NCBI RefSeq assembly: GCF_021502675.1
Contig: NZ_JAKFHA010000001.1
Span: 863,566 to 927,565, forward strand
Origin: Yinghuangia soli
GTDB lineage: Bacteria; Actinomycetota; Actinomycetes; Streptomycetales; Streptomycetaceae
Direction of reading: 5' to 3'
DNA length: 64,000 nt
In this document: piece after piece, positions 3,281 to 15,002 of the stretch
Layout: every line of letters begins with the position of its first letter
Numbering within the stretch: position 1 is the first letter of the stretch
The notes under the pieces: generated by a model
What the model saw: only the letters and a program-made list of their open reading frames with translations
Told to the model about the DNA's origin: nothing
The model's database searches: none
Translations under genes and position numbers: made by a program

Positions 3281-4303
3281 TCAGGGGCTTTGTGCGTACA
3301 GGCGCGCGACCACCTCCTCGATGTCCGGCTCCTGCACCGCGACGTCGCGCAGCCCGCCGAGCTGCGCGAGCCGGCCGATCAGGCCGCCCGCCGGGACGCC
3401 GTCGAGAGCGAACACCACCCGGTGCCCGTCGTCCTCGACGCGTTCGACCTTGGCCCCGGGCACGTGCGGCAGCTCGTCGTACGGCCGGTCCAGGTCGGCC
3501 ACCACGCGGCGGCGCGAGCCGTAGCGGTCGTGCAGCGCGGCCAGCGTCCCGTCGTGCACCACGCGCCCGTGGTCGACCACCACCAGCCGGGGGCACAGGC
3601 GTTCGATGTCGGCGAGGTCGTGGGTGGTGAGCACGATGGTGACGTCGCCGCGCGCGCCCAGCTCGGCCAGGAACGAGCGCAGCGCCTGCTTGCTGACCAC
3701 GTCGAGGCCGATGGTCGGCTCGTCCAGGAACAGCACGCCGGGGCCGTGCAGCAGCGCCGCGGTGATCTCGCCGCGCATGCGCTGGCCCAGGGACAGCTGC
3801 CGGACCGGGGTGTCCCAGAAGGCGCCCAGGTCGAGCAGCTCCCGGCAGGCCGCGAGGCGCCGGGCGTGCTCGGCCTCGGGGACCGCGTAGACGTACCGGA
3901 GCAGCCGGAACGACTCGTGCAGCGGGAGGTCCCACCACAGTTGCGAGCGCTGCCCGAAGACCACGCCGACCCGGCGGGCCAGCTGCTTGCGCCGGGGCAC
4001 CGGTTCGAGGCCGCACACCCGCAACTCCCCGCCGCTGGGCGCGAGTACGCCGGTCATCATCTTGAGCGTGGTCGACTTGCCGGCGCCGTTGGGGCCGATG
4101 TAGCCGATGGTCTCGCCGTGGCCGACCGCGAGGTCGACGCCGGCCACCGCGGCCACGGTGTGCGAGGTGCGGCGCACCCGGCCGGCGCGGCGCTTGACGG
4201 TGAACTCCTTGCGCAGTCCGGCCGCCGAGATGGCCGGCGCGCCGGCCGCCGGTCCCGCGGCGCGCGCGGTGGCGGAGGGGCTGGGGAACGATGCTGCATT
4301 CAT
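3281..4303 (-). CDS. ABC exporter ATP-binding protein
   Basis: A 340-residue ABC ATPase that powers the two ABC-2 permeases encoded immediately upstream. It shows Walker A GPNGAGKST, signature LSLGQRMRGE, Walker B GVLFLDEPTIGLD and the switch His in LTTHD. The segment WWDLPLHESFRLLRYVY in the helical domain is typical of ATPases paired with DUF990-type permeases. A C-terminal domain of about 90 residues follows. The ATG at 4303 overlaps the permease stop by 4 bp (ATGA), indicating translational coupling. About 35 Ala/Pro-rich residues precede the ABC domain. The exported substrate is unknown; drug or lipid export is possible. Confidence 0.92.
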   Translation of the reverse strand: MNAASFPSPSATARAAGPAAGAPAISAAGLRKEFTVKRRAGRVRRTSHTVAAVAGVDLAVGHGETIGYIGPNGAGKSTTLKMMTGVLAPSGGELRVCGLEPVPRRKQLARRVGVVFGQRSQLWWDLPLHESFRLLRYVYAVPEAEHARRLAACRELLDLGAFWDTPVRQLSLGQRMRGEITAALLHGPGVLFLDEPTIGLDVVSKQALRSFLAELGARGDVTIVLTTHDLADIERLCPRLVVVDHGRVVHDGTLAALHDRYGSRRRVVADLDRPYDELPHVPGAKVERVEDDGHRVVFALDGVPAGGLIGRLAQLGGLRDVAVQEPDIEEVVARLYAQSP

Positions 4304-5094
4304 GATCCGGTACTCCTGTAATGGCGGACGCCGGTACGCCACATCAGCACGGCGCCGACCCACGCCGCGGCGGCGGCGAGCGGCGTGCACCAGGCCACCC
4401 ATGCGGGCGTACCGAGCGGGTCCGGGCGGCCGAGCAGGGCGAGTGCGGGCTGGTAGCCGGCGAAGCCGTAGCCGAAGAGGACGCGCATCCAGGCCGGGTA
4501 GATGGTCTGCGGGTAGGTGCCGAACGTGCGTCCGCCGTAGGTGAAGGCGTTGGCGAACTCCCCCGAGTCGATCCAGAAGAACGCGACCGTGGCGCCGGCC
4601 ACGAAGGCCGCCGCGAACAGTGCGCCGGCCGCGACCGGTGCGGTGACCGCGAGCAGGGCGCGGGCCGGCGTCCAGTCGATCCCGGCGTACACCAGGGCCG
4701 CGGCGTACAAGGCGAGGCCCTGCACGACACGCCCTGCCTTGCGCAGCGGGAAGTCCCCGGCCAGCAACTGGCCGAGGGGGCTGAGCGGGCGGACCAGAAC
4801 AGTGTCCATGCGCCCGGTGCGGACGTATTCGGCGATCCGCTCGATGTTGCCGACCGCGAGATCGGCGATCTGGAAGGCGAATTCGCAGAGCGCCGCGATG
4901 AGCACCGCCTCGCGGACCGAGAAGCCGCCGAGCGAGGGGGTGACCCGGAACAGCACGAGGATCGCGAGGATCTCCAGCACGCTGACGCACGAGGTCAGCG
5001 CGGCGTCCATGGCGAACGAGGCGCGGTACTGGCTCTGGCTGCGGATCTGGGCGCGCACGAGTTCGCGGTACGCGCCGCGGGCAGGTTCAGCCAC
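4300..5094 (-). CDS. ABC-2 type permease, second of pair
   Basis: A 264-residue membrane subunit of the exporter with about six hydrophobic segments. It resembles the DUF990 / ABC-2 group, with an N-terminal RSQSQYRASFAMDAALTS coupling region and the family-typical block RTGRMDTVLVRPLSPLGQLL. I chose GTG at 5094: it overlaps the preceding permease gene by 8 bp and has GGTGG/CAGG upstream. The longer reading from 5139 would add 15 residues that duplicate coding space of the neighbour. It overlaps the ATPase gene by 4 bp at its end. Confidence 0.85.
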   Translation of the reverse strand: MAEPARGAYRELVRAQIRSQSQYRASFAMDAALTSCVSVLEILAILVLFRVTPSLGGFSVREAVLIAALCEFAFQIADLAVGNIERIAEYVRTGRMDTVLVRPLSPLGQLLAGDFPLRKAGRVVQGLALYAAALVYAGIDWTPARALLAVTAPVAAGALFAAAFVAGATVAFFWIDSGEFANAFTYGGRTFGTYPQTIYPAWMRVLFGYGFAGYQPALALLGRPDPLGTPAWVAWCTPLAAAAAWVGAVLMWRTGVRHYRSTGS

Positions 5095-6043
5095 CCTGCA
5101 CCACCAGGCGGGTGACGGCGCGGCGCTGGACGCGCGCACAGGCCTGGAAGAGGAGCGCGGCCCAGGCGATCTGCAGCAGCACGGTGGCCGCCGCGACCCC
5201 GGAGGACGTGCGTTCCACCGCGATGTCCAGCGGCACCTGGAAGACGCTCGGGAACGGCGTGGCGCACCAGACCAGCCACTGCGCCCACTCGGGCAGGAAG
5301 CGCAGCGGGAAGTACCCGCCGCACAGCGGTCCGAGGATCAGCATCCAGAACGAGATGGGTCCGCGGATGTCCAGCAGCCAGAAGCCGGACAGGTTGACCA
5401 GGTAGCGGCCCGCGAAGCTGACCAGCGTCGCGGCCGCCACCGATACCGCGAACATCGGGTAGGTGACGGCTCGTTGCGGCAGGTACATGCTGTAGAACAG
5501 CAGGCCGAACGCGAGGGGCGCGAGCAGCCGGGTGAGCACTGCGTACCCGGCGCGGCCGAGGTCGGCGGCGGCGTAGGCGGCCAGCGGGTCGACCGGCCGC
5601 AGCAGGTCGGCGGCGACGTCGCCGCTGCGGATGCGTTCGGCGAGTTCCTTCCAGGCCCAGATGCACACCACGCTGAGCAGGCCCTGGCCCACCCACACGT
5701 AGCTGACGAGCTGCGCGGTCGTGTAGCCGCCGGGGCGGCCGGACGCGCCGGCCACGTCGACGTACACGGCGCAGAGCATGATGCCGAAGACGATGTTGGT
5801 GAACACGCCGGCCACGGTGGCCTGGCGGTAGGTGGAGTGGCGGCGGAAGCCGGCCCCGGCGAGCGCGGCGAAGGCGCGAGCGGAGTCCCGGAACGGGATC
5901 GGCGCGGGGCGGGCATCAGGGGCGGAGCGGGTGTTCTTGTCGGATCCGGAGTCGGGTTCGGTGTCGGATCTGGTGTCGGACCCGAAGTCCGATCCGGACT
6001 CGGGTTCGGGACCTGGTCGCGGGCATGCGGCGGCAGACGGCAT
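5087..6043 (-). CDS. ABC-2 type permease with acidic repeat N-terminus
   Basis: A 318-residue membrane subunit, first gene of the three-gene exporter operon. Six or so membrane segments follow residue 75. The block RIRSGDVAADLLRPVDPLAAY matches RTGRMDTVLVRPLSPLG in its partner, so the two permeases are paralogous half-transporters. The first 45 residues are a degenerate Ser/Asp/Pro/Glu repeat (GSDFGSDTRSDTEPDSGSD) coded by an imperfect tandem DNA repeat at 5935-6010; this is unusual for the family and may not be translated if a downstream start near FRDSARAF is used. The 273 bp upstream (6044-6316) holds no gene I can support, and probably the promoter. Confidence 0.82.
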   Translation of the reverse strand: MPSAAACPRPGPEPESGSDFGSDTRSDTEPDSGSDKNTRSAPDARPAPIPFRDSARAFAALAGAGFRRHSTYRQATVAGVFTNIVFGIMLCAVYVDVAGASGRPGGYTTAQLVSYVWVGQGLLSVVCIWAWKELAERIRSGDVAADLLRPVDPLAAYAAADLGRAGYAVLTRLLAPLAFGLLFYSMYLPQRAVTYPMFAVSVAAATLVSFAGRYLVNLSGFWLLDIRGPISFWMLILGPLCGGYFPLRFLPEWAQWLVWCATPFPSVFQVPLDIAVERTSSGVAAATVLLQIAWAALLFQACARVQRRAVTRLVVQGG

Positions 6044-7542: not shown

Positions 7543-8676
7543 TCAGCCAATGGTCGCGGCCCAGTCGCCCCGCTCGAACGTCAAGGCACCATCGCGTTCG
7601 ACGGTCACCTCGGCTCCGTAGAGCTGGAAGTACCCGTACGTCAGCCAGGACTCACGCAACTCGTCGAGGACGTCCCAGAGCCGTTGCGGACCGGCCTGGT
7701 GGACGGTGGGCGCTTCGCGCTTGTAGCCCTGCGCGCGAGCCCAGGAGCCGTCGGGCGCGGTGATCCACGCCGTACGCCATCCATCGTCAGTGCGATGGAA
7801 CGAGTGCCACACACCTGGGACTTCGATCGCAAGGACGGCGCTGAGCTCCCACGACTCATGGATCTGGACGACCGGGTAGCGGCCGGTGGTGACGGTGTCG
7901 CCGTCGCCTGTCGAGACGACGGCGAAATCGGGGCCGGGGCGGGGCGGGTAGTCGTCGCCGGAGCGCGTCGTCATGAAGCTCCCGCGCTCCCACTCGACGC
8001 GGCCCCTGAGTCGCCCGTCCGGCAACTTGTCGGCGGTGACGATCACATGCAGGTCGGTCAGGGTGGTGACGAGCCGTCCTCCAGTGCGGAGAGCGGCGAC
8101 CCATGATGCGGGGATGCGCGGCACCGAGACCATGGAGATGATGCGGTCGTATGTGCCGGGGAGTTCACCGGTGGCGTCACAGGTCGTGACGGTGGGGTGC
8201 AGACCAAGCGAAGCGAGGCGTTCAGCAGCTGCCTTGGCCAGGTAGGGGTCGACGTCGATCGAGGTCACGCGATCGCCCCCGAACCGGTGCGCGAGCAGTC
8301 CGGCGGAGTATCCGGAGCCGGTTGCGAGATCGAGAATGTCGGCGCCGTCGTACAGACGTCCGAGGCGCAGCATGGTGAGGACGAGGCCCGGGAGCGTCGA
8401 CGACGACGTCGGGACGCCCTCGGGTGCGGCATCAGCCTCGGCGTGGTCGGCATGCAAAGGGCCGACCCGGGTGACGAGGGTCTGATCGCGGTACGCGGCG
8501 TCGAGCCACGCGTCGGAGTCGGCAGGGCCGTCCCTGAGGACGTACGAGCCGCCGGACCAGTCCCACCAGCGCGGCACGAACACATGCCGCGGGACCTGCT
8601 TGACCGATTCATGCCAGCGTGACGGGGAGTTCGCGACCTGGTGGGCGAGACGGTGCGCGGGGTTCTGCCAGTCCAT
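7543..8676 (-). CDS. isoaspartate-type (PCMT-like) methyltransferase, RiPP-maturase-like
   Basis: A 377-residue SAM-dependent O-methyltransferase of the protein-L-isoaspartate methyltransferase fold. The N-terminal VPRHVFVPRWW motif, the DATGSG-like SAM loop DLATGSGYSAGLLAHRFG, and the block TLVTRVGPLHADHA followed by PTSSSTLPGLVL are visible. A C-terminal domain of about 180 residues extends past the PCMT core. From memory this architecture and wording are closest to methyltransferases in ATP-grasp-modified peptide systems, with the FxLD lanthipeptide type next. No ATP-grasp ligase or lanthionine synthetase is in the window. The start is ATG at 8676 with a textbook AGGAGG 4 nt upstream. It sits 67 bp after a 35-aa proline-rich peptide gene, a possible substrate (inference). 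Confidence 0.82.
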   Translation of the reverse strand: MDWQNPAHRLAHQVANSPSRWHESVKQVPRHVFVPRWWDWSGGSYVLRDGPADSDAWLDAAYRDQTLVTRVGPLHADHAEADAAPEGVPTSSSTLPGLVLTMLRLGRLYDGADILDLATGSGYSAGLLAHRFGGDRVTSIDVDPYLAKAAAERLASLGLHPTVTTCDATGELPGTYDRIISMVSVPRIPASWVAALRTGGRLVTTLTDLHVIVTADKLPDGRLRGRVEWERGSFMTTRSGDDYPPRPGPDFAVVSTGDGDTVTTGRYPVVQIHESWELSAVLAIEVPGVWHSFHRTDDGWRTAWITAPDGSWARAQGYKREAPTVHQAGPQRLWDVLDELRESWLTYGYFQLYGAEVTVERDGALTFERGDWAATIG

Positions 8677-8743
8677 AGGTCCTCCTGCAGGAATCGAGGC
8701 CGGAGGCAACTTGTCCCCGGCCCCGTGGTCGTGGTGGCGGGCC

Positions 8744-8851
8744 TCAGTCCGGACGGCGGTGCGTCCCGGGACCTGCGGGCGGGCCGCTGTCCCGCTCGGG
8801 GCGCCCGGGTGGTTGCGAAGGCGGTTGCGGCGGGTTCGGCTGACCGGTCAT
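8744..8851 (-). CDS. 35-aa proline-rich peptide, candidate modified-peptide precursor
   Basis: A 35-residue ORF with 12 prolines (PNPPQPPSQPPGRP near the start) and two Asp, one in RDSG and one as the final residue. An AGG-containing ribosome site (AAAGGTAGGGATGAC) stands directly before its ATG, which is why I call it a gene. It has no leader/core layout I recognise and no Cys. It lies between the 72-aa gene and the PCMT-like methyltransferase gene on the same strand, 55 and 67 bp from them. A role as methyltransferase substrate is inference; it could instead be a short regulatory peptide or spurious. Confidence 0.5.
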   Translation of the reverse strand: MTGQPNPPQPPSQPPGRPERDSGPPAGPGTHRRPD

Positions 8852-8906
8852 GTCATCCCTACCTTTCTCGATGGTGCCCCGGTGCGATTCTGCGCCGGGC
8901 CTCGGG

Positions 8907-9125
8907 TCAACTGGTGCTCTCACGACGCCTCGTGGCGAGGACTGACGGGTAGCCCGCGAGCGAGACCGTCCATTCGAGGCCACCGCGCTCCGGCCGCAAC
9001 CACAAGGTCATCTCGGCCTGCCCCACGTCGGACACGTCCATGACCTGCTGAGGTCCGTAAATGGTGTGCACGATCGTGCCGACCACCGGGGGTTCGGGTG
9101 CCATGCTCGGGGTCGCTGCGTCCAT
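8907..9125 (-). CDS. 72-aa conserved-looking small protein
   Basis: A 72-residue acidic protein of unknown function starting at ATG 9125, with AAGGA eight bases upstream. It contains PPVVGTIVHTIYGPQQVMDV and AEMTLWLRPERGGLEWTV, suggesting a small beta-rich fold. No membrane segment, Cys or leader-type double Gly is present. It heads the leftward mini-operon with the proline-rich peptide and the methyltransferase, divergent from the HTH-TPR regulator at 9255. Small proteins next to HTH-TPR regulators are common in Streptomyces (DUF397 being one type), but I do not see DUF397 motifs here. Confidence 0.6.
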   Translation of the reverse strand: MDAATPSMAPEPPVVGTIVHTIYGPQQVMDVSDVGQAEMTLWLRPERGGLEWTVSLAGYPSVLATRRRESTS

Positions 9126-9196: not shown

Positions 9197-9254
9197 AGAC
9201 AATGAACCGAGCCGATCCAACGCCGATCCCTTGCGAGAAAGGCCGGTGCCGTCG

Positions 9255-10547
9255 ATGCAGCAGCTCGGCGAGGCTATGCGCCAGGCACGCAGGGAGTCCG
9301 GGATGGTGTGGGCAGCCTTCGCCCAGCAGGCGGCGTTCGGTGAGGCCTACCTGCGCAACGTCGAGAACGGGAACCGGCCCGTCACCGCCGCCGTTGCCGC
9401 CGCATACGACCGAGTACTGGGCACCGCAGGGGCATTCGAGGCCGCCCTACGCGGATCCGGCGCCATCGACTCCGACGCTGCTCCGTGGAGCACGTCGGTG
9501 AACCTGACGGTCCTCACGGGACTGCTGAACGGGAGCAGAGTGGACCGCAGGGGATTTCTGGCCGTCGGCGCCGCGCTGTCCGCGTCCGCGGCCGCTTGGT
9601 CCGCCGTCGTCGGTGACGACCAGCTCGGGCAGGTGTCGCATGCGGACGATCCGGCAGGCCCGGCACTGCTGGGGCACGTCGAGGACCGACTCGACCACCT
9701 GCGGCGACTGGACGATGAGCTTGGCAGCGGCGAGGTCCACGGACTCGCACGCGGTGAACTGTCCCTGCTTGTTCGCCTGATCCAGTCAGGACGGCACAAA
9801 GGGCCAAGCATGAGAAGGCTGTACACGATGGCCTCCGAGGCAGCGCGGCAGGCTGCTTGGAGCGCCTTCGACCAAGGAAACCTCGGCGTGGCCCAGCGGT
9901 ATTTCGACGCAGCCCTGCGCGCGTCCGCAGATGCGGACGACCCGATCGGCGGCGCCTATGCGCTCTCCTTCGCAGCCATCCAGTGCTACTCCACACCTGG
10001 TGAAGCCGGCCGCGCCGTCGCCTTGTTGGACGCAGCCAGCTCCCATGTACGTGGGCAAGCCACCCCGCGTATGCACGGCATGCTTGCGGCACGGACCGCC
10101 CGTGCGCTTTCCAAGACGGGAGCGAAGAAGGACTGCGCCCGCCAACTCGACTTCGCCCGTGCCGCGCTGGACAAAGGCACGCACGACGACGACCCCAAGA
10201 CGCTGTACTGGGTCGACCACGGCGAAATTGAAATGATCGCCGGTTCGTGTGCCCTGGAACTGGGGGACGCGGCCGAGGCGGTCCGCCGATTCACGGCAGC
10301 GCAGGCCGTAGCCCGGCCCGGCGAGCAGGCGTACCCCCGCAGCCACGCCATCTACCTGGCCCGCGCTGCCGAAGCACACTTCGCCATGCACGATCTGGAC
10401 GCAGCCCTTGAACTCGCCCATCGCGCCGCACATTGTCTCGGCACGGTCGACTCGGCGCGCTCAGCCTCGGAGCTGAGCGGCCTCCGCAAGAAGCTTGCCC
10501 CGCACTCCGCTCACTCCGGAGTCCGCGATTTCCTAGAGGTCGGGTAG
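9255..10547 (+). CDS. XRE-type HTH regulator with TPR-like domain
   Basis: A 430-residue cytoplasmic regulator. The N-terminal 60 residues form a degenerate helix-turn-helix (LGEAMRQARRESGMVWAAFA, then FGEAYLRNVENG). A linker contains RRGFLAVGAALSASAAAW, which mimics a Tat-like stretch but is internal. From about residue 190 there are TPR-type helical repeats (AWSAFDQGNLGVAQRYFDAA, GGAYALSFAA, ALELAHRAA). Start is ambiguous: ATG 9255, GTG 9246 or TTG 9231 are in frame, with AAGG at 9239. Such regulators in actinomycetes often sit beside peptide-natural-product genes. It is divergent from the methyltransferase mini-operon and overlaps the HAD gene tail-to-tail by 15 bp. Confidence 0.82.
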   Translation: MQQLGEAMRQARRESGMVWAAFAQQAAFGEAYLRNVENGNRPVTAAVAAAYDRVLGTAGAFEAALRGSGAIDSDAAPWSTSVNLTVLTGLLNGSRVDRRGFLAVGAALSASAAAWSAVVGDDQLGQVSHADDPAGPALLGHVEDRLDHLRRLDDELGSGEVHGLARGELSLLVRLIQSGRHKGPSMRRLYTMASEAARQAAWSAFDQGNLGVAQRYFDAALRASADADDPIGGAYALSFAAIQCYSTPGEAGRAVALLDAASSHVRGQATPRMHGMLAARTARALSKTGAKKDCARQLDFARAALDKGTHDDDPKTLYWVDHGEIEMIAGSCALELGDAAEAVRRFTAAQAVARPGEQAYPRSHAIYLARAAEAHFAMHDLDAALELAHRAAHCLGTVDSARSASELSGLRKKLAPHSAHSGVRDFLEVG

Positions 10548-11417: not shown

Positions 11418-12353
11418 TCAGAGGAGGCTTCGCTCCGGGTAGCGGCCGCTCGGGGTGACGATGGTGCCGGCCTTGCCGGCCAGGATGTCGGTGGCCTGGT
11501 CGAGGGAGCCGATGGCGGCCATGTCGCCGGTCGTCTCGACGAACTGGCAGACGGCGTCGACCTTCGGGCCCATCGAGCCGGCCGGGAAGTCCTCGGCGCG
11601 CAGCGAGGCCGGCGTCGCGTTGGCGATCTCCTCGGCCTGCGGGGTGCCGAAGCCGCGCATGACGCGGGGCACGTCGGTGAGCAGGAGGAGCGCGTCGGCT
11701 TCCAGTGCCTCGGCGAGCAGCGACGCGGTCAGGTCCTTGTCGACGACCGCCTCGACGCCTTCCAGCTGGCCCTCGTCATTGCGCAGCACGGGGACGCCGC
11801 CGCCGCCCGCGCAGACCGCGATGGCGCCGGAGTTGAGCAGCTGGCGGATCAGCCGGGTCTCGACGACGCGGCGCGGCTTGGGCGACGGCACCACGCGGCG
11901 CCAGTACTGGCCGTCCTGCTTGACCACCCAGCCGCGCTCGGCCGCCAGCCGGTTGGCCTCCGCCTCGTCGTACACGGTGCCGACGAACTTGGTCGGGTTC
12001 TCGAACGCGGGGTCGGCGGCGGACACCAGGGTCTGGTTGATGAGCGCGCAGACCTGGCGGCCCGGCAGCGCGTTCTGCAGCGACTGGAGCAGCCAGTAGC
12101 CGATCATGCCCTGCGTCTCGGCGCCCAGGACGTCGAACGGGTACGGGGTGCTCAGCGACTTGTCCGCGGCGGATTGCAGCGCGAGTACGCCGACCTGCGG
12201 GCCGTTGCCGTGCGTCAGGACGAGCTCGTGCTCTTCGGCGATGGGGGCGAGGGCCTTGACCGCCTTGCGGATGTTGGCCAGCTGGATGTCGGCGTCGGGC
12301 TTGTCCCCGCGCTGGAGCATGGCATTTCCGCCGAGGGCGACGACGACGCGCAT
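11418..12353 (-). CDS. arcC: carbamate kinase
   Basis: A 311-residue carbamate kinase, the last enzyme of the arginine deiminase pathway. It converts carbamoyl phosphate and ADP to ATP, ammonia and bicarbonate. Motifs are VVVALGGNAML at the start, HGNGPQVG, and the acidic amino-acid-kinase core (VVDKDLTASLLAEAL). Length fits the family. The start is ATG 12353 with GGAAGGGAAG upstream. It is the promoter-distal gene of the arc operon, separated from arcB by a 129-bp gap containing a 19-bp stem-loop, which may tune its level relative to arcB. Confidence 0.97.
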   Translation of the reverse strand: MRVVVALGGNAMLQRGDKPDADIQLANIRKAVKALAPIAEEHELVLTHGNGPQVGVLALQSAADKSLSTPYPFDVLGAETQGMIGYWLLQSLQNALPGRQVCALINQTLVSAADPAFENPTKFVGTVYDEAEANRLAAERGWVVKQDGQYWRRVVPSPKPRRVVETRLIRQLLNSGAIAVCAGGGGVPVLRNDEGQLEGVEAVVDKDLTASLLAEALEADALLLLTDVPRVMRGFGTPQAEEIANATPASLRAEDFPAGSMGPKVDAVCQFVETTGDMAAIGSLDQATDILAGKAGTIVTPSGRYPERSLL

Positions 12354-12422
12354 TGTCTTTACTTCCCTTCCGGGAGGAGGAGTGGATCACGATTGATCCG
12401 GATAAATGGGGCACTTCTTGAA

Positions 12423-12468
12423 CGCGTACGGCCCGGGCACCTCGGCTCGGGTGCCCGGGCCGTACGCG
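12423..12468 (-). terminator. intercistronic stem-loop between arcB and arcC
   Basis: A perfect 19-bp stem (CGCGTACGGCCCGGGCACC and its complement) with loop TCGGCTCG lies 15 bp past the arcB stop and 70 bp before arcC. With no T-run it may be a leaky terminator or a 3'-end-stabilising hairpin inside the operon. Confidence 0.8.
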
Positions 12469-12482
12469 GTTGCTGCGGGGCG

Positions 12483-13484
12483 TCAGTCGCCGAGCGTGGC
12501 GACCATGATGGCCTTGATGGTGTGCAGGCGGTTCTCGGCCTCGTCGAAGACGATCGAGAAGTCCGACTCGAACACCTCGTCGGTGACCTCCAGGGCCTCC
12601 ATGCCGGTGCTCTCGTACAGGTCCTGGCCGACCTTGGTGTGGCGGTCGTGGAACGCCGGGAGGCAGTGCATGAACTTGACCTTGGGGTTCTCGGTCGCCT
12701 TCACCACGTCCATGTTGACCTGGTAGGCCTTGAGCAGCGCGATGCGCTCGTCCCAGACCTCCTTGGGCTCGCCCATCGAGACCCACACGTCGGTGTAGAG
12801 GAAGTCCACGCCCTTGACGCCGGCCTTGACGTCCTCGGTGTGGGTGATGGTGGCACCGGTCTTGGTGGCGATCTCCTTGGCCTGCGTGATGATCTCGTCG
12901 TCGTTCCACAGCGCCTTGGGGGCGACCATGCGGACGTCCATACCCAGCATGGCGGCGGTGATCATGAGCGAGTTGCCCATGTTGTTGCGCGCGTCGCCGA
13001 GGTAGGCGAACGAGACGTGGTGCAGCGGCTTGTCCGAGTGCTCCTTCATGGTGAGCATGTCGGCCAGCATCTGGGTCGGGTGCCACTCGTCGGTGAGGCC
13101 GTTCCAGACCGGGACGCCCGCGTACTTGCCGAGCTCCTCGACGTACTCCTGCTTGGAACCGCGGTACTCGATGCCGTCGTACATCCGGCCGAGGACGCGC
13201 GCGGTGTCCTTCATCGACTCCTTGTGGCCGATCTGCGAGCCGGTCGGGTCCAGGTAGGTGACGTTCGCGCCCTGGTCATAGGCGGCGACCTCGAAGGCGC
13301 AGCGGGTGCGGGTCGACGTCTTCTCGAAGATGAGGGCGACGTTCTTGCCCTTGAGGCGCTGCTGCTCGATGCCGGCGTACTTGGCCGCCTTGAGGTCCGC
13401 GGCCAGGTCGATCAGGAACTTGAACTCCTGCGGGGTGAAGTCGAGTTCCTTGAGGAAGTTGCGGTGGCGCAGGTTGAAAGCCAT
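12483..13484 (-). CDS. arcB: ornithine carbamoyltransferase (catabolic context)
   Basis: A 333-residue ornithine carbamoyltransferase. Carbamoyl-phosphate-binding STRTRCAFE and ornithine-binding HCLPAFHD are intact, as is the middle region [12 protein letters not shown]. In this operon it runs phosphorolytically, splitting citrulline into ornithine and carbamoyl phosphate for ArcC. The same enzyme type serves arginine biosynthesis (argF), but flanking arcA and arcC assign it to the deiminase pathway. Start ATG 13484 has CTGGAG seven bases upstream. Confidence 0.97.
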
Positions 13485-13581
13485 GACTCCAGTTCTTCTC
13501 TCGTGTGGTCGGCTGGGGTGCCGGCAGTGGTACTTCGGGTCACTGCTTGTTGTACCGCCTGCAGCAAGGCGGGTCTGTGGG

Positions 13582-13626
13582 CGCCCGGGCGGTCGCGGCG
13601 CAGGTCAGGCCGCAGCCGCCCGGGCG
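13582..13626 (-). terminator. intercistronic stem-loop between arcA and arcB
   Basis: Outer arms CGCCCGGGCGG and CCGCCCGGGCG pair perfectly; an inner GCGGC/GCCGC stem continues the fold. It lies 8 bp past the arcA stop and about 98 bp before arcB. It mirrors the hairpin between arcB and arcC. Confidence 0.7.
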
Positions 13627-13633
13627 GGGGCGG

Positions 13634-14863
13634 TCAGGAGACCGCTTCGCGCTCCACCGGGCAGCTCATGCAGCGCGGGCCGCCGCGGCCGCGGCCGAGT
13701 TCGCTGCCCCGGATGGTGACGACCTCGATGCCGTTCTTGCGGAGGAACGTGTTGGTGGTGACGTTGCGTTCGTAGGCGAAGACGACGCCGGGCTCGACCG
13801 CGAGCACGTTGCAGCCGTCGTCCCACTGCTCGCGCTCGGCGGAGCGCACGTCCTGGGTCGCGGTGAGCACGTTGATGCTGTCCAGGCCGAGAGCCCGCGC
13901 GATGGCCTTGTTCATGTCCTCGGCCGGGTGGTCGGTGACCTTCAGCTCGTCGTCCGAGTCGCCAGGCTCGATGGTGTACGAGGGCAGCATGCCCATGCCG
14001 GCGTACTTGGTGAACGTGTCGCCGTTGAGCATCGTCATGACCGTGTCGAGGTGCATGAACGCACGGGCCTTGGGCATCGCGAGCGCCACGACCTTCTGCG
14101 CCGCGCCCTTGCGGAACAGCGCGCGGGCCAGCGCCTCGACGCCCATCGGGGTGGTGCGCTCGCTCATGCCGACCAGCACCGCGCCGTTGCCGATGACCAG
14201 GACGTCGCCGCCCTCCATGGTCGCCGGGTACTCGGACTGGCCCGGGTTCCACACGTTGAAGTCGCCCTTGGCGAACATCGGGTGGTAGTTGTAGATCGCC
14301 TCGAAGTGCACCGTCTCGCGGCGCCGGGCCGGCATCTGCATCGCGTTGATCGCGACGCCGTCGTACACCCAGGCGGAAGTGTCGCGGGTGAACAGGTGGT
14401 TCGTCACCGGGATGATGGTGAAGTCGTCGAGGTCCATGGTGTGGAACGCGACGCTGTGCGGCTCCTCGATGTGCTCCAGCACCTCGCGCTTGGTGATGCC
14501 GCCGATGAGGTGGCGGACCAGCGTGTCGGTGTCGAAGTTCTCGAACAGCCCGCGCAGTTCGTCGACCGCGAGCAGGCCGTAGGCGCGCTCGTCGAAGACC
14601 CGGTCCAGGATGAGCTTCTTCGCGGCCGGCTCGCTCTGCAGCGTCTCCTTGAGGAGGTCGGCGAAGAGGTAGACGGTGATCCCGCGGTCCCGCAGCGCGT
14701 CGGCGAAGGCATCGTGCTCCTCACGTGCCCGCTTGACCCACAGGACGTCGTCGAACAGCAGATCGTCCTTGTTCGTCGGGGTCAGCCGCTTGAGCTCCAG
14801 GTCCGGTCGGTGCAGGATGACCTGCTTGAGCCGGCCGGTCTCCGACTGGACGTTGAAACCCAT
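13634..14863 (-). CDS. arcA: arginine deiminase
   Basis: A 409-residue arginine deiminase that hydrolyses arginine to citrulline and ammonia. Guanidino-modifying-enzyme motifs present are [21 protein letters not shown] (catalytic His/Asp region) and the C-terminal [11 protein letters not shown] with the nucleophilic Cys. Start ATG 14863 is fixed by AAGGAGG five bases upstream; the longer reading to 14926 adds no homology. It follows the antiporter gene by 139 bp and precedes arcB by 149 bp. Length fits the family. Confidence 0.97.
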
Positions 14864-15002
14864 GGAACCTCCTTGGCAGTGCGGGGGTTTCCCGCGGTTT
14901 TTCCGGGGTTCGCCGCGCGGTGGCACAGCGGGGGTGGAGCTGGGTGCGGACGGGGTGGTCCGTGGTGCGGGGTGTCGGGTACGTGGTGCCGGGCGCGGGG
15001 CG

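Follow-up and report, generated by a model that had tools for sequence, protein, structure and literature searches.

A two-gene locus of a 35-residue precursor peptide and an aspartyl methyltransferase in Yinghuangia soli, with a probable enzyme exchange

Gene content of the locus

The window analyzed here is a 64,000-nucleotide stretch of the Yinghuangia soli genome, and all coordinates are positions within it. On its minus strand, a 72-aa ORF (9125-8907; ATG, with AAGGA upstream) is followed by a 35-aa ORF (8851-8744, minus strand; ATG, with AAGGTAGGG about 8-14 nt upstream) and by the gene of a 377-aa methyltransferase (8676-7543, minus strand), which is a RiPP-type aspartyl methyltransferase (PAMT; protein/peptide L-aspartyl O-methyltransferase). 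The PAMT begins at an ATG with GGAGG ahead of it, a TTG at 8709 being the less likely start, and a spacer of 67 nt (8677-8743, minus strand) separates it from the stop codon of the 35-aa ORF. Both the mini-operon and the good ribosome sites of its two small ORFs, as described in an earlier sequence-only reading of this DNA, are in place, and so is the divergent HTH-TPR regulator (about 9252-10547, plus strand), which belongs to the NsdA family (NF053720, 253.7 bits, cut-off 75).

Downstream of the PAMT lies an ABC-2 type transporter with an ATPase and two permeases (3281-6043, minus strand); it is on the same strand as the PAMT, yet nothing links it to the peptide/PAMT pair. A DUF6301-like gene, which scores below its cut-off, stands between the two. 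Arginine deiminase, ornithine carbamoyltransferase, and carbamate kinase are encoded in a row (11418-14926, minus strand) and form an arginine deiminase pathway operon. The genes tested from 3.3 to 15 kb, namely the transporter, the DUF6301-like gene, a HAD hydrolase, and the three genes of this operon, include no RiPP maturase or protease, and the reported absence of an ATP-grasp ligase, a lanthionine enzyme, and a protease nearby was confirmed over this interval. Upstream of the PAMT, the first 4.3 kb hold no radical-SAM gene.

The 72-aa protein carries an LRPxxGGxEW motif and has five paralogs in its own genome (E up to 5e-5), three of them divergent from XRE/DUF397 regulators and one (L104) ahead of another radical-SAM gene. 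On these contexts it was rejected as a substrate, and it is probably not one of the modified peptides. It falls in a family of small proteins beside HTH/DUF397 regulators and is probably part of the regulatory module, a regulatory or accessory role being likelier than that of a substrate. The proposal of a minimal modified-peptide system accordingly survives as one precursor with an isoaspartate methyltransferase and no maturase, and loses its second peptide. At L104, a short ORF that repeats RPTWDN units (FDSRPTWDNQGQRFDNRPTWDNWSK) comes after the radical-SAM gene behind the paralog, and that locus is likely a radical-SAM RiPP.

The precursor peptide and its relatives

The product of the 35-aa ORF, MTGQPNPPQPPSQPPGRPERDSGPPAGPGTHRRPD, contains 12 Pro and 5 Gly among its 35 residues. 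Open frames are frequent in GC-rich DNA, and the ORF might be a chance frame ahead of an ordinary protein-repair PIMT, whose catalytic core the methyltransferase resembles. In dinucleotide shuffles of the 230-nt gap, an ORF of at least 30 codons preceded by an SD sequence appeared in 7%, and one that also had at least 25% Pro in 0.4%. We take the frame as more than chance, and what decides the matter is conservation. By listing same-genus PAMTs with TIGR04188 and reading the ORFs upstream of them, we found in the same-genus genome G002 a 35-aa peptide, MPDPNPQPRPNPPPGKPDRDGTPPAGPGRHRRDDE, that shares 62% identity with the window peptide and is encoded directly ahead of a type I PAMT (L179). 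The two peptides reach a global alignment score of 111, against a mean of 32 (SD 9.7) for shuffles. Their DNA differs 8, 9, and 23 times at the first, second, and third codon positions, with 14 synonymous and 13 non-synonymous codon changes, and this third-position bias of the peptide frame is in line with the sequence-only reading.

Nine further regions upstream of PAMTs were read, L195 (genome G005) and eight plasmid loci (L218-L225), and eight of them (L195 and seven of the plasmid loci) carry related precursors ahead of type I PAMTs. The remaining one, L221, has a different, Gly/Asp-rich peptide in the same layout of divergent HTH gene, 68-aa ORF, 44-aa ORF, and PAMT. Ten precursors, those of the window and L179 included, share the motif D-[GST]-x-x-P-x-G-x-G-x-[HR]-[RK] in their C-terminal part, the last position of which falls beyond the end of L225. 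Every one of the ten keeps the Asp of the motif, Asp21 in the window; the residue after it is Gly in eight and Ser in the window. Two Asp residues had been put forward as chemically plausible for aspartimide or isoaspartate formation: the one in RDSG is this invariant residue, and the C-terminal one is not conserved across the family. A profile built from the eight precursors other than those of the window and L179 gave the window peptide a score reached by 5 of 200000 composition-keeping shuffles, and in the 1.03 Mb of sequence compared the motif occurs near a stop codon in PAMT-upstream peptides only. A tblastn search of the peptide against plasmids gave no match, and alignment-based matches at E 0.0006-0.01 were mostly noise; among the loci checked, only L195 precedes a PAMT.

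Taken together, these comparisons identify the 35-aa ORF as a real precursor of the type I pamtide/imiditide class, with Asp21 (codon 8789-8791) as the predicted modified residue and the C-terminal THRR as the predicted recognition end. Peptide homologues ahead of PAMTs at nine other loci contradict chance, and the methyltransferase has a RiPP-type C-terminal extension and a match across TIGR04188, leaving a repair enzyme beside a fortuitous ORF scarcely credible. A structure prediction from two sequences was discarded (pLDDT 35).

The same genus is rich in PAMTs, with 18 TIGR04188 matches at E <1e-30 in G002. Within the genome of the window, peptides of this general make-up precede four other PAMTs (L002, L004, L007, and L008), and L006 is preceded by a type II peptide with CxxCxGxG. 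A second subfamily of type I precursors, whose IGGGNTGTRRKPK-like ends are strongly conserved, precedes the same-genus PAMTs L172, L184, L188, and L008.

The methyltransferase and its radical-SAM-associated relatives

The window PAMT matches TIGR04188 over positions 2-360 of 363 with 244 bits (cut-off 380), which makes it a relative and no member, and it matches TIGR04364 in the catalytic core only (59.9 bits, cut-off 320). The search that had been proposed against both models therefore shows a relationship to each, below both cut-offs. The PCMT Pfam model gives 50.8 bits, and only the catalytic half of the enzyme can be aligned with solved PIMTs. The extended PCMT-like layout recognized earlier is upheld by the nearly full-length TIGR04188 match and by a C-terminal extension typical of RiPP-associated PIMT homologues. 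A WXXXGXP motif near the C-terminus is common in imiditide PIMTs and is not stated to define the class; it is incomplete in the window PAMT (WLTYGYFQ), which keeps the W and G and has no Pro.

Homologues at E <1e-75 occur in 50 of 395 genomes of the same family, at identities of 44-56%, and no closer relative (>56% identity) was found in the class, the order, a second family, or plasmids. Our comparison set comprised 79 distinct loci, including the window, from the family genomes and from class and order samples. Upstream of the PAMT, 52 of these loci have a radical-SAM gene, 11 have an ATP-grasp gene, and 16 have neither within reach. In two trees, the window PAMT groups with the radical-SAM- and ATP-grasp-associated PAMTs (24-row group, SH-aLRT 100); it lies among the radical-SAM-associated ones, next to a group from a different family within the class (support 92/75 and 81%).

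The radical-SAM proteins encoded upstream of PAMTs (L054, L062, L032, L057, L009, and others) carry C-terminal units of the form C-x-P-x-D-S-x-D-C-x-P-x-x-T-x-A-C-x-P-x-Y. At least one such unit is present in 46 of the 52 loci by a simple pattern, and tandem copies are clear in several. At L023, L025, L063, and L037, the radical-SAM gene is intact and similar sequence occupies a reading frame separate from it. We propose that these C-P-D-S-D-C-P units are probably built-in precursors fused to the radical-SAM enzyme, for which we found no earlier report in the literature searched. A survey of 249 radical-SAM-PAMT clusters did not find their precursor (PMC10787088), and the fused tails, if they are precursors, would answer that question. 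Radical-SAM relatives without a PAMT (L144-L151, L153, and L154) share a C-terminal CTPPQFLPMCGPCGPCVPSVGHCDPREA tail that is nearly constant.

These associations raise the alternative that the window PAMT acts in trans, for example on the Cys/Asp-rich tail of the one radical-SAM protein of this family elsewhere in the genome, as its relatives would do in cis, and that the 35-aa peptide either is left over or serves as substrate for one of the genome's other PAMTs. Radical-SAM and PAMT genes co-occur in the 395 genomes (33/50 vs 25/345, odds ratio 25), and the clade of the window PAMT is mainly radical-SAM associated. The genome of the window has a single radical-SAM homologue, on contig 23 (L110 and L111), with no PAMT beside it; its tail is CSPQDDECSPGTPLSTCNPRR, and it is accompanied by an APH-like kinase, encoded after the tail, and by an NsdA-type regulator of its own. 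However, this radical-SAM gene is of the kinase-paired type, which has no adjacent PAMT in four other genomes either, and the 35-aa peptide is conserved and encoded in one gene row with the PAMT, so we consider action in trans unlikely. The radical-SAM/APH-like kinase pair recurs in L152, L155, L159, L163, and L157 and is possibly a RiPP type of its own. Descent of the 35-aa peptide from a radical-SAM tail was also tried and rejected, as its alignment with the contig-23 tail scores 48, the shuffle mean is 45, and 29% of shuffles reach that score.

Precursor-enzyme mismatch and comparison with known systems

Every PAMT behind a related precursor groups with L002-L008 from the genome of the window. 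The window PAMT belongs to the other clade, and its identity to the L179 enzyme is 29%. The peptide motif is absent upstream of all 78 other homologues of the window PAMT, which leaves a single observed case of the pairing. The proposed check for both small ORFs directly upstream of PAMT homologues was negative in these 78 loci. The sequence-only reading regarded homologues without the peptide ORF as fatal, and such homologues are what we found for this PAMT; the peptide is nevertheless kept ahead of a different PAMT clade, which points to an exchange of the enzyme and does not refute the peptide.

The spacer probably retains a trace of this exchange. The stop of the peptide and the start of the PAMT overlap at L179, and in the window the 67-nt spacer takes the place of this overlap. 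Positions 8711-8725 (minus strand) read CGGGGCCGGGGACAA, a 15-nt exact match to DNA that encodes the N-terminus of the L179 PAMT; it lies 18 nt past the peptide stop in the window and 15 nt past it in L179, there within the first PAMT codons. None of 1000 dinucleotide shuffles reached this length (maximum, 12 nt). In the window, the matching stretch is upstream of, and in frame with, the ATG of the new enzyme and its GGAGG. In this single comparison of the window with L179, the match is probably a relic of a displaced type I PAMT; the enzyme thus probably changed while the precursor stayed, the simplest account of the data. A stronger version, in which non-orthologous displacement recruited a PAMT with relatives in radical-SAM or graspetide pathways to a linear imiditide precursor that it now aspartimidylates, has in our judgment about an even chance of being right.

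An exchange could also have left a decaying remnant whose two parts no longer cooperate. The pairing occurs in no other genome, the end branch of the window PAMT is long (0.61), and the enzyme departs from its relatives at six conserved columns, including a conserved proline at position 351. However, it keeps 78 of the 84 columns conserved among 77 relatives, the precursor motif is intact, and the reading frames are open with good ribosome sites, which makes decay very unlikely.

With reasonable confidence, we favor a two-gene imiditide/type I pamtide locus in which the PAMT acts on Asp21 of the 35-aa precursor and which probably arose by enzyme exchange. This explanation builds on the identity of the PAMT, the conservation of the peptide and of Asp21, the placement of the enzyme outside the type I clade, and the 15-nt match in the spacer. 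In the proposed sequence of events, a PAMT of the radical-SAM/ATP-grasp lineage would have replaced the original type I PAMT, of which a fragment of the initial codons would remain behind the retained precursor. The present enzyme would bind the peptide, probably through the basic C-terminal THRR and its own C-terminal domain, a mode of recognition suggested by the conserved peptide end and by analogy with published SpaA and NmaA mutants. It would then methylate the side chain of Asp21 with SAM, the backbone nitrogen of Ser22 would attack the ester to give an aspartimide, and the aspartimide would partly hydrolyze to isoaspartate.

A precursor family that occurs with two distant PAMT lineages within a single genus offers a natural test of which parts of precursor and enzyme have to match and touches on how PAMTs choose one aspartate without damage to the proteome. 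The idea, already published, that PAMTs move from one RiPP class to another gains support from this locus, in which traces of the event remain, and the displacement, if true, would mean that PAMTs are able to switch precursor class in one step.

A PAMT with a short Gly/Pro/Asp-rich peptide alone is a published class, the type I pamtides or imiditides, and its reaction on linear peptides has been described for SpaM/SpaA and NmaM/NmaA (PMC10787088, PMC13001092). Aspartimide/isoaspartate is the modification that defines this class. The two-gene reading of the locus therefore holds, but as a case of a system already described. The window shares with NmaA-NmaM and SpaA-SpaM the two-gene core of a short Pro/Gly-rich precursor followed by a PAMT, a PIMT homologue with a C-terminal extension encoded beside the precursor, a conserved Asp near Pro/Gly, a basic C-terminal part with the [HR]-[RK] motif, and the lack of a primary maturase of another RiPP class (3.3-15 kb). 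It differs in that its PAMT belongs to the radical-SAM/ATP-grasp-associated clade, the type I clade being usual and not stated as defining, in the Ser that replaces Gly after Asp, in the incomplete WxxxGxP, and in a precursor that is shorter (35 vs about 45 aa) and less positively charged than those described. The radical-SAM-PAMT clusters hold its closest relatives by tree (44-55% identity), but the window has neither their radical-SAM gene nor the C-P-D-S-D-C-P tails fused to that protein. Graspetide PAMTs (TIGR04188, methyltr_grsp) share a full-length match and include the closest single match (L011, 56% identical), whereas the window PAMT stays below their cut-off and has no ATP-grasp ligase or graspetide precursor at its locus. 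With the FxLD lanthipeptide methyltransferases (TIGR04364), it has the catalytic core in common, but its score is far from their cut-off (60 vs 320 bits) and no lanthipeptide enzyme accompanies it. Compared with these systems, the locus is ordinary by its precursor and unusual by its enzyme.
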